This document shows, piece by piece, positions 1 to 3,593 of a stretch of 35,006 nt of DNA. Origin of the DNA: Chthonomonadaceae bacterium (GTDB lineage: Bacteria > Armatimonadota > Chthonomonadetes > Chthonomonadales > Chthonomonadaceae); NCBI GenBank assembly GCA_025352825.1, contig JANXSG010000114.1:1-35006 (forward strand), read 5' to 3'. Position 1 is the stretch's first letter, and each line of letters opens with the position of its first letter. The notes under the pieces were generated by a model. The model did not search any database, had not been told where the DNA came from, and was given only the letters and a program-made list of their open reading frames with translations. Both the position numbers and the translations under genes were made by a program.

Positions 1-2171
1 AATTCGGAGAAAATAAATCCGCCTGCATCATCACCTGCGAAATCTACTCGGTCGATGACCGCCGTCTCCACACTGCATACATCCATTAAATCGCGAACGT
101 TAGTCTTTGTGCGAGTTACCGATGCTCCGTGCAGTGATGCGAGAGATTCGATTATTCTTGGCGCGTTAATAGGAACCGCAATTTTAGCATTTTCCTTGGT
201 TCTGGCAACCAGAACACACATCATGGCAAGGAGCTGATCTCCGTCGATTACCTGCCCATTTTCATCCACGAGAGTCATTCTCTCGCCATCTGCCTCGAAT
301 AGCACTCCCAGGTCGGCATGCAGAGTTTGAACTATCTGCGCTAGATTCGGAAGCAGGCTTGCTCTGTCGAGAGGAGTTTTCGGTGTTTTAGAAACATCCG
401 GGTAGGCGTTCAGTGCAATAAGATCGCATCCAAGCCGGCCAAGCATGGTGGGATAGACACTTGCAAGCCGCCCGAAAGCAAAGTCGGCGACAATTTTCAG
501 ATGTCGTGTTTCCACTTTGGCAACATTTATATGATGATAAAAATCTTCTGCGTACTGCTCTTCACTTCGGCCAGCAAACTCCAGCTGCCCTACCTGCTCC
601 GCATCGACACGTCTGAAATCTTCACGGAAGAAGATGGTCTCAATCTTGCGCTCTGCATTTTTAGATAGGTAGACTCCCTGTCCGTCAAAGAATTCTATCA
701 GAGCAAGTTTGGGATCGTTTGGCGCCAGCCGAATATGCACTCCCCCACCCGCCTGCGACCCGAGGATTCCATGGCGCGCAATAGGAAGCGGTTTAGAACG
801 CATATCCAGCACATTCACACCTACCGAAAGCAGCCCTGAAATCATGGCACGTTTCATCATTCGAGCGACCGGGCCAGAATCGCGGCTCGTGACTACTGTA
901 GCTCCCCGCTTTAGATAGCCTCCGAATGATGCTCCCAGCTTGCAGGCAAAATCAGGAGTGAGTTCAATATTGGCGATTCCCATGACACCTTGGTTACGGA
1001 AGAGCGAGCCCGCCCATTTCTGACCCCATATCAGGCTCATCGTTACTGTGCTTCCAGCCTCGATAATTTTGTCTGGCCAGAGTTTAATCTGTGTACGAAT
1101 GGTGCAGCCGTTTTCAATCCGGCATCTATTACCTATGACGACGCCTTCTTGAATGACACAGCTCTGCTTAATAGTTGCATGGGAGCAGACCGTACAGGCA
1201 CTTAACCGCGACTCGACTCCCACATAGACATTATCCCAAAGGACGCTGCGGTGGATTACTGCCTTCTCTTCGATGATGGCATTGTCACCTACGACTGTGT
1301 ACGGACCGACAACTGCCTCTGCTTTAATTTTGCAGTTCTTACCTATCACTACCGGAGGGATAATCTGTGCCGTAGGATCGATATCGCAGCCATCTCCCAC
1401 CCATACTCCGCCCTCACGAACCAGCGAAGTACTGGAGCCGATTTGAATTCTAGTCTGGCCATCGAGCACAGTGTACTGAGCCTCTCGATACTGCTGGAGA
1501 TTACCTACATCGCACCAGTAGTCGTTATCCATTACATAGCCAAATATGGGCTTAGACTCTGAAAGCATCTGAGGGAAAATATCCTGGCTCCAGTCGTAAT
1601 TCTTCCCCATCTCCATATAATTAAATATGGATGGCTCCAAAATATACATTCCCGTGTTCACGGTATCGGAGAATACTTCTCCCCAGGAGGGCTTTTCCAG
1701 GAATCTTCGAATACGGCCTTCGTCGTCAATGATAACAACACCGAATTCGAGTGGATTTGGAACATGCGACAGCACGATAGTCGCCTGACTATCTTTCTCC
1801 TTGTGATATTTTATAGCCTTTGTTAAATCTATATCGGTGAGTGCGTCTCCGCTGATGATAAGGAATGTATCGTCTTTTAAATGCTCTTCGGCCTGCTTCA
1901 CACTGCCAGCCGTCCCCAGAGGAGTATCTTCGACAGAGTATATAAGTTTGACTCCCCATTCGGAGCCGTCGCCAAAATAGCCTTCTATCTCATCCGCAAG
2001 ATAATGCAGAGTAACGATAATCTCCGTGATATCGTGCTGCTTAAGCAGAATCACAATATGTTCCATGATTGGAACATTGAGTGCTGGGGCCAACGGTTTT
2101 GGGCGCTGGGAAGTGATCGGCCGCAGTCGCGTTCCTTCTCCCCCTGCCATAATGACTGCTTTCAAATCCAC
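1..2171 (-). CDS. Mannose-1-phosphate guanylyltransferase / phosphomannomutase-like fusion (C-terminus cut by window)
   Basis: Makes a nucleotide sugar, most likely GDP-mannose from mannose-1-phosphate and GTP, for polysaccharide synthesis. About 723 codons are visible and the C-terminus is lost at the left edge. Order of domains: nucleotidyltransferase (residues 1-235; [11 protein letters not shown] at the start, [20 protein letters not shown] further in), a left-handed beta-helix hexapeptide region (about 250-370), then an alpha-D-phosphohexomutase-like region from about residue 390. In that region the phosphoserine loop expected to read TASHNP reads IRLAPNDP, and the metal loop expected as DGDxDR reads EADGER, so I infer that mutase activity is lost. 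GTG at 2171 is taken as the start; TTG at 2165, with a G-rich stretch upstream, is equally possible and gives the classic KAVIMAGG beginning. The sugar specificity (mannose or glucose) is not proven by sequence. It is the last gene of a minus-strand run. Confidence 0.88.
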
Positions 2172-2274
2172 CCCCCATTCCAGTGATGCTAAAATAATGG
2201 AAATTATCCGCACGATATCAGCACATGCACTATTTCGTCATGAAAAATCTGGGGCTGCAGAGGAGGTAAGGATA

Positions 2275-2745
2275 CTATCCTTTGGTCTGATCTGCAGCAG
2301 TATATCTATCAACGGCACCATATATCATCAGAGCGCCACCCGCAAGCCCGACCAGCACACCAGAAAGCATCGAAAAACGTGCGAGAGCAATCAGAAAGCA
2401 TACTGCCCCCATCAATCCCTGTCCAGCGCCAATCAAACGTCGATTTGAATGATCAGGTGTCCAAAGCAACATCAATCCGCAACCAACACTGCAGATTGTA
2501 ATGGGCCAGCGAATAACAGTGCTGATACCATGATAAGTGATGCTCAGCGGGTGTGAATATACTGCTGGAAGTGGTAAAATCATATTTGCAGGAATGACAT
2601 GGCTTTCCCAGGGCAAGAATAGACTAAATATTGCCGCTAACATTCCAATCAGAGTTGCAGCCTCACCTCGGCTTAAAAAACGCTGCAGATCGCCGTTTGC
2701 TGAATCAGGAGAAACGGCATGAGCTATTTCCTTTTCTTTTGCCAA
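2275..2745 (-). CDS. Four-helix membrane protein of unknown function
   Basis: I do not recognise this 156-residue protein. It has a charged cytoplasmic-type N-terminus (MAKEKEIAHAV) and then four hydrophobic segments at roughly residues 31-48, 78-97, 103-121 and 124-145, so it is an integral inner-membrane protein. A PW motif follows the first helix. The start is TTG at 2745, chosen because AGAAGGA lies just upstream. It sits 103 bases upstream of the guanylyltransferase gene and 81 bases downstream of the hexulose-phosphate-synthase-like gene, all on the same strand, so co-transcription is possible. Nothing in the sequence indicates a ligand or catalytic site. The reading frame is open with sensible codon use, and the overlapping plus-strand frames are shadows. 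Confidence 0.7.
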   Translation of the reverse strand: MAKEKEIAHAVSPDSANGDLQRFLSRGEAATLIGMLAAIFSLFLPWESHVIPANMILPLPAVYSHPLSITYHGISTVIRWPITICSVGCGLMLLWTPDHSNRRLIGAGQGLMGAVCFLIALARFSMLSGVLVGLAGGALMIYGAVDRYTAADQTKG

Positions 2746-2826: not shown

Positions 2827-3519
2827 CTATTGCTCGTGAATCCGACTGCAAATCTCTCTTAATATGCCTTCCAGATCGCCGGATGCCGTCTTAAAAGCGT
2901 CGGCATCCACCGTGAGTGGAGCACCAAGCACCACGAGAGGTGCGCCATAACTTGGGCATGCGATAGCCTGTTCAATGGATAAACCACCTACGGCCTGAAC
3001 CGGGATAGAGACGGCCTGAACTACTTCTCTCAGCTTATCGAGCGGGCTGGGCATTCCGCCGTTGTACATTTTCTGTACTTCCGGGTCGCGCCGTTCGTCG
3101 TATCCGATATGATGGATTACAAAATCACAGCCCAGATCTTCGAGAATTTTGGCTCCTTCAACCATATCTTCACAGCCTAAATTATCCCCCATCACCTTGA
3201 TACCATAATCTTTACCAGCTTGTACAACCTGCTTGATTGTAGCTGGATGTGCTCGTGCCATCACTACCACATGGGTGGCGCCTGCCTTGGCCATCATCTC
3301 CGCTTCCAAATAACCGCCATCCATCGTTTTCAGGTCGGCAACTATAGGTGTGTCTGGAAATGCAGCACGCAGTGCGCGCACTCCATGCAGGCCTTCGGCA
3401 AGAATAAGTGGAGTACCTGCTTCCAGCCAGTCGATACCAGCTCGCATTGCGATAGCGGCTGTTTCTAAGGCTTCTTCCTTGCTGGTTAAATCAAGGGATA
3501 TCTGTACGATCGGTTTCAA
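2827..3519 (-). CDS. 3-hexulose-6-phosphate synthase-like / OMP-decarboxylase-superfamily TIM barrel
   Basis: A TIM-barrel enzyme of the orotidine-5'-phosphate decarboxylase superfamily, in the branch holding hexulose-6-phosphate synthase (formaldehyde plus ribulose-5-phosphate) and 3-keto-L-gulonate-6-phosphate decarboxylase. Signature strands are visible: PIVQISLDLTS at the start, PIVADLKTMDGGYLEAE with the D-x-K-x-x-D catalytic set, MGDNLG, and VQAVGGLSIEQA near the end as phosphate-binding loop. Length is about 230 residues, normal for the family. An upstream ATG exists at 3555, but TTG at 3519 is preceded by AGGAG at an 8-base distance and gives the usual family beginning, so I take that start. 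The partner isomerase (hxlB) is not in the window, so a role in the ribulose monophosphate pathway is unproven. It could instead act on ketogulonate phosphate. Confidence 0.85.
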   Translation of the reverse strand: MKPIVQISLDLTSKEEALETAAIAMRAGIDWLEAGTPLILAEGLHGVRALRAAFPDTPIVADLKTMDGGYLEAEMMAKAGATHVVVMARAHPATIKQVVQAGKDYGIKVMGDNLGCEDMVEGAKILEDLGCDFVIHHIGYDERRDPEVQKMYNGGMPSPLDKLREVVQAVSIPVQAVGGLSIEQAIACPSYGAPLVVLGAPLTVDADAFKTASGDLEGILREICSRIHEQ

Positions 3520-3593
3520 GTTAAATTCTCCTGGATTCAACCCTGATGCATTCATAAATTACTACAGGAATTGAAAAAAGCTCTGAGTTAGTG

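Follow-up and report, generated by a model that had tools for sequence, protein, structure and literature searches.

A bacterial family of sugar nucleotidylyltransferase fusions with a probably non-catalytic phosphohexomutase domain

Results

A nucleotidyltransferase-mutase fusion gene with altered mutase loops

The window, i.e. the whole stretch of DNA analysed, is a complete 35,006-nucleotide contig (G000:C124) of a Chthonomonadaceae bacterium. Its first gene (1..2171, minus strand) encodes a fusion of a nucleotidyltransferase, a left-handed beta-helix and a phosphohexomutase; the contig stops at base 1 and truncates its C-terminus. The mechanical open reading frame (3..2213, minus strand) comprises 737 aa and stays open where the contig ends, and the GTG at 2171 is the likely start codon. 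Pfam placed the NTP_transferase domain at 1464..2162 (minus strand; residues 18-250; E 2.4e-57), with its G-x-G-x-R, SGD, EKP and W-x-D-x-G motifs, followed by the hexapeptide left-handed beta-helix (LbH) at 1098..1406 (minus strand; residues 270-372), which is also found in the structure model of a relative, L007. A KLWPDK linker (1068..1085, minus strand), conserved as K-I/L-W-P-D-K in 14 aligned sequences, leads from the beta-helix to the mutase half. There, a degenerate phosphoserine domain, PGM_PMM domain I (612..1004, minus strand; PGM_PMM_I residues 404-534; E 2e-21), precedes domain II (255..560, minus strand; PGM_PMM_II residues 552-653; E 2.3e-14); domain III is truncated and domain IV lies beyond the contig end. 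A 156-residue ORF without a Pfam match adjoins the fusion gene (2278-2745, minus strand), and relatives of this ORF lie close to the fusion in 7 further loci; an OMPdecase/HUMPS gene comes next at 2830-3555. The neighbours in the window say nothing about the function of the fusion.

The mutase half was aligned with an archaeal PMM/PGM (PDB 1wqa, using phmmer) and with the products of three further genes of the mutase superfamily in the same genome. An earlier note on this DNA had read the phosphoserine loop TASHNP as replaced by IRLAPNDP (residues 494-501, nt 711-734) and the DGDxDR metal loop as EADGER, and both replacements were confirmed by these alignments. Within the former phosphoserine loop (711..749, minus strand; active form GGAVITASHNPP), TASHNP has become RLAPND, i.e. 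Ala497 (nt 723-725) replaces the catalytic serine, Arg495 aligns with the preceding Thr and Pro498 with the His. In the former metal loop (279..296, minus strand; residues 640-645; active form DGDADR), Glu640, Asp642 and Glu644 align with the three metal Asp residues (E-x-D-x-E over D-x-D-x-D). Since these positions all stay acidic in the window protein, the metal loop is better termed altered than lost. The sugar-binding loop GE-x-S-G-G/H is absent, with AGDDAGGF (15..38, minus strand) in place of GGEESGG, and the position of the RPSGTEP phosphate loop falls off the contig.

The replacements are common to the family

Relatives were collected from Armatimonadota (the phylum of the window genome), Bacillota (the phylum of G101), the phylum of G105 and plasmid-collection records (4 sequences, from Actinomycetota and Sulfuricurvum). 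This gave 179 sequences, or 147 at 99% non-redundancy. An intact mutase site was present in 0/147 and no member combined Ser with three Asp; therefore, the loop change is neither chance nor a sequencing slip. The location of the gene at a contig end would fit an assembly error or a local pseudogene, but equivalent replacements throughout the family, together with purifying selection in relatives (see below), refute this explanation and leave it a negligible chance.

The serine itself is missing from the window protein (Ala497), but a clean, branch-wide loss was rejected because the column is variable (A 54, S 44, L 23, D 9, other or gap 17). None of the 44 members with Ser has His after it, i.e. 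no loop reads S-H, and the Thr preceding the Ser column is replaced by Arg in 137/147. Since the Ser column varies, the losses in the phosphate loop and at the third metal Asp carry more weight. Glu occupies the third metal position in 143/147 members and Asp in none, and RPSGTEP has changed to LPDASEP in the relatives. The Arg of this loop survives in none of the 144 members whose sequence covers it (the window protein is among the 3 others), and the loop Ser is replaced by Asp in 137/147. At the sugar-loop Glu position, 49 of 69 relatives have Asp and 2 have Glu. Two changes are near-universal in the family: the phosphate-loop Arg is lost, and the third metal ligand is Glu instead of Asp.

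In a tree of 59 mutase domains, 30 family rows lay beyond one branch with support 100; the tree was built by a quick method, and the other rows include long branches and came with a warning about how they join. This clade and the 147 sequences show that the loss is common to the whole sampled branch. Judged from these alignments, a fusion with replaced mutase catalytic parts is a design common to a large bacterial family.

The mutase half is retained and predicted to fold

The selection acting on both halves was estimated from Nei-Gojobori counts for eight pairs of relatives, of which five were scorable; the other three, including the window versus L007, were saturated in one or both halves. 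For the five pairs, dN/dS was 0.025, 0.038, 0.060, 0.050 and 0.127 in the mutase half, similar to the NTP half (0.025, 0.046, 0.097, 0.028 and 0.101), demonstrating that the mutase half is under purifying selection in these five of eight pairs. Within the half, several columns of the old loops were comparatively well conserved (R481 in 64/73, E630 in 70/73, P813 in 73/73 and D814 in 69/73), and the Ser column was at the 17th percentile of conservation.

The fold was examined in L007 (82% identical), whose AlphaFold model (mean pLDDT 91.9, pTM 0.65) contains the four-domain mutase fold; the window protein itself has no domain IV. Residues 389-847 of this model matched the phosphoglucomutase 9du5_A over 447 residues (Z 46.2, 2.4 A), and the N-terminal half matched GMPPB (7d72) over 350 residues (Z 43.0, 1.9 A). 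The dN/dS values, the conserved columns and the L007 model together give good support to a domain that is retained, predicted to be folded and probably not catalytic in the known way.

Other mutases and nucleotidyltransferases in the window genome

The genome encodes three further mutases, each with catalytic motifs. GlmM (C39) and Pgm (C120) exceed the NCBIfam cut-offs of their models, and the third, C114, is of the PMM/PGM type and scored 445 bits, below the cut-off of 618. Their serine loops read SASHN, PSHN and TASH, their metal loops DGDADR or DPDHDR, and their phosphate loops retain R-x-S. Hexose-phosphate mutase work can therefore be done elsewhere. This agrees with the prediction that another gene takes over, although what the earlier note called mannose-6-phosphate isomerisation should read as the mutase reaction. 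The genome also holds RmlA (over cut-off), two GalU-like genes (below cut-offs), two standalone ManC-like nucleotidyltransferases (below cut-offs; C34, and C248, cut by a contig end) and four more NTP_transferase matches.

The nucleotidyltransferase half and its sugar

The NTP_transferase motif residues of the window protein are invariant in 73/73 relatives, and the N-terminal half looks like a working sugar-activating enzyme. Which sugar it activates is less clear. The best NCBIfam match was man1P_GTase_Rv, a mannose-1-phosphate guanylyltransferase model (NF052502), at 278.8 bits and below the cut-off of 440, and the GlgC model (TIGR02091) gave 115.5 bits, far below its cut-off of 424.9. Among solved structures, the closest by sequence was tlr0611 (8x7s; E 7e-62, 36-37% identity), which was deposited as a UTP--glucose-1-phosphate uridylyltransferase and, at ~390-400 residues, differs from the fusion in having no mutase half; GDP-mannose enzymes ranked behind it (1e-41 and weaker). 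A guanylyltransferase annotation is in itself weak evidence, since sll1558, a Synechocystis gene annotated as guanyltransferase, is reported to be the UDP-glucose enzyme CugP (PMC7401256). The 'GDP-mannose-type' label in the earlier note is thus doubtful, with a glucose-1-phosphate uridylyltransferase entry as the nearest solved relative and a Bacillota gene context that points to alpha-glucan.

That context was examined in 20 loci from 19 genomes, hand-picked among 128 Bacillota genomes with the fusion. A GT4 gene lay within 3.5 kb of the fusion in 17/20 loci, scoring best on a glycogen-synthase model yet below its cut-off. Proteins related to GH57 branching enzymes, which also stay under the cut-offs of the NCBIfam models they match best, were encoded within the same distance in 10/20. 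A DUF4912 gene accompanied the GH57 gene in 9/20 loci (L194, L195, L197, L198, L199, L205, L206, L207 and L208) and may be a hitherto unrecognised component of an alpha-glucan cluster. Near the fusion in Armatimonadota, GT4 was found in 2/18 loci and GH57 in 4/18; neither was found in the 5 loci from the phylum of G105. Among 80 genome_contigs loci, 4 had GH57 near the fusion, two of them Bacillota/Firmicutes and one of the others apparently identical to a contig among the 18 Armatimonadota loci. The GH57 gene of the window genome (contig C271, 8326 bases) had neither GT4 nor the fusion alongside on that contig. GT4 genes near GH57 in archaea are described as possible glycogen synthases of unproven function (PMC11046441). 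Possibly, then, the fusion is linked to the storage of glucose polymers and not to mannose.

The fusion and GlgC in Armatimonadota and Bacillota

Of 101 Armatimonadota genomes, 55 had the fusion (4 by partial matches), 24 had full-length GlgC (21 over cut-off, 3 just below) and none had both. GlgA was over cut-off in 54 genomes, most of which are split between the two (33 with only the fusion, 17 with only GlgC, 0 with both), and one of the 4 with neither, G100, has GlgC fragments. At the level of 33 sampled families, 12 had the fusion, 14 GlgC, 0 both and 7 neither, a split that may reflect few events. In 299 Bacillota genomes, the fusion was present in 128, GlgC in 85 and both in 19 (odds ratio 0.28, Fisher P = 5e-6, relatedness ignored); when 19 ambiguous genomes were counted as having the fusion, 30/147 had both (P = 0.003, again ignoring relatedness). 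Strict replacement of GlgC is exclusive in the Armatimonadota sample, yet 19/128 Bacillota have both proteins, and it was rejected as a general rule.

In the window genome, neither GlgA nor GlgC was detected over cut-offs, and GlgA over cut-off was lacking in 22 of the 55 fusion-bearing Armatimonadota, this genome included; therefore, a glucan role cannot be general. Standalone nucleotidyltransferases score about as well as the fusion on the GlgC model (in the window genome, 123.3 bits for C34 versus 115.5) and are also candidates in GlgA genomes without GlgC.

Related fusions and paralogues

A mirror-image fusion, here called type B, has an intact mutase half behind a degenerate nucleotidyltransferase half. 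It was found at L116:376-2880 (G055) and L118:236-2755 (G042), both on the plus strand, i.e. in 2/101 genomes, which also carry the fusion with the degenerate mutase. Its mutase loops read TASHNP, DGDADR or DCDGDR, GEESGG and RPSGTEP, and in its nucleotidyltransferase the Arg of G-x-G-x-R is Pro and SGD reads NGH. A common origin with type B was rejected, as the type B mutase half grouped within the phylum's standalone mutases in the tree. In G083 (L170, G083:C31:16984-19518), the parts of type B are two distinct genes that lie side by side and have catalytic motifs, an arrangement that may predate the fusion. Two further loci, L280 (G412:C285) and L281 (G407:C8), have adjoining standalone mutase-family genes, one intact (TASHNP, DADADR) and the other degenerate (SAGHNG, NSDVSR), which suggests another pseudo-mutase lineage or a heteromeric mutase.

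Within the fusion family, L104, L113, L253-L257, L266 and L277 are longer (~945-965 residues), with a C-terminal extension of ~120 residues; in L104, the one scanned, part of the extension weakly matches DUF5752. The family has paralogues, since the Bacillota genomes G154, G183, G219 and G353 hold two full-length copies each.

Discussion

We propose that the fusion protein is a sugar-1-phosphate nucleotidylyltransferase that would work through its N-terminal half, with a C-terminal phosphohexomutase fold that probably no longer catalyses phosphoryl transfer and would be kept as a non-catalytic module. Most likely, the module would regulate the attached enzyme, through an effector bound in the reshaped cleft, or assemble it. 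We give this reading a probability of about 60%, with the role and the sugar as its inferred parts. The earlier note's view of the mutase domain as non-catalytic is well taken: with its loops replaced family-wide, it is very probably not a mutase. Sugar-phosphate sensing, if any, would be unlikely to rely on the canonical contacts, as the Arg and Ser that bind the phosphate have been replaced, and this loss in the relatives argues against sugar-phosphate binding in the usual mode.

An active mutase half with an unusual mechanism would need Glu/Asp/Glu to hold the metal and another residue to be phosphorylated. The acidic residues at all three metal positions of the window protein, the Ser in 44/147 members and the purifying selection on the domain are compatible with this, as is the listing of CDD cd05805 among subfamilies with distinct reactions (PMC9426568). 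However, the substrate-phosphate Arg is gone wherever the loop can be read, the Ser column is among the poorly conserved positions of the half and Ser never occurs with three Asp, which makes such an enzyme improbable. The degenerate but conserved fold could also have gained a new catalytic activity. A purely structural mutase half, which binds no ligand and serves oligomerisation or docks partners such as GT4, would explain the loss of the phosphate-binding residues, and mutase folds can act as protein partners (GlmM with CdaA, PDB 7olh and 9g69, both structure matches here). We consider it rather unlikely, as the good conservation of R481, E630, P813 and D814 suggests that a pocket, and not just a surface, has been conserved. 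For our preferred reading of a nucleotidylyltransferase with a regulatory or assembly module, there are precedents with the roles exchanged. GMPPA/GMPPB and eIF2B gamma/epsilon share the NTP_transferase and beta-helix fold with the fusion (structure matches), and in these pairs a non-catalytic copy regulates or serves its partner; there the dead part is a nucleotidyltransferase, whereas in the fusion it is the mutase. PGM5 is an inactive mutase paralogue; like GlmM in its complex with CdaA, it is a mutase fold with a non-mutase role and no fused nucleotidyltransferase, and 6y8x and 7olh were among the structure matches of the L007 model.

The product is a separate question. Synthesis of GDP-mannose, with the Bacillota glucan neighbourhood as a side branch, would fit man1P_GTase_Rv as the best, although sub-threshold, NCBIfam model, the close fold of GMPPB to the L007 model and the recovery of S. 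coelicolor SCO1388 as a ManC candidate (PMC5982138). However, the same paper reports that SCO1388 disruption had no effect on phage sensitivity and assigns the activity to two other genes. The window genome has ManC-like genes of its own outside the fusion, and tlr0611 ranks ahead of the GDP-mannose enzymes. We regard GDP-mannose as a doubtful possibility. NDP-glucose is our tentative choice of product in much of the family and, for alpha-glucan, the likeliest one there ahead of GDP-mannose. A more specific and unlikely extension is that the family is an alternative to GlgC, which shares the nucleotidyltransferase and beta-helix but has no extra mutase fold. The fusion would then be an allosteric NDP-glucose pyrophosphorylase with a dead phosphoglucomutase as its regulatory domain, and the fold of the preceding step would now be a sensor that sets alpha-glucan flux in lineages with glycogen synthase and without GlgC.

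The fusion family is presumably CDD cd05805 (MPG1_transferase), a subfamily of alpha-phosphohexomutases that carry a fused domain of the mannose-1-phosphate guanylyltransferase type, and CDD may already remark on its missing catalytic residues; the novelty we claim is lowered accordingly. Our search of the open-access literature found no description of the mutase half of this family as dead. From its domains, SCO1388 'appears to be a bifunctional enzyme', i.e. GMP and phosphomannomutase, in the wording of PMC5982138. It probably belongs to the fusion family, judged from the described domains and from the plasmid-collection Actinomycetota loci L122-L124, which have the same architecture (99-100% of the length of L012, 36-40% identity). 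The mutase loops of L122-L124 are equally degenerate and more divergent, and a bifunctional reading is unsupported by the loops of these three sequences. Since such proteins are described as guanylyltransferase/phosphomannomutase, as for SCO1388 in that paper, pathway predictions may credit them with a mutase activity for which the sequences give no support, and with an unproven role in mannose metabolism. If the glucan reading is true, the fusion would be a candidate enzyme for NDP-glucose formation, the step that is missing where Armatimonadota have GlgA but no GlgC, and it would offer a fused pseudo-enzyme module that is testable by ordinary kinetics.
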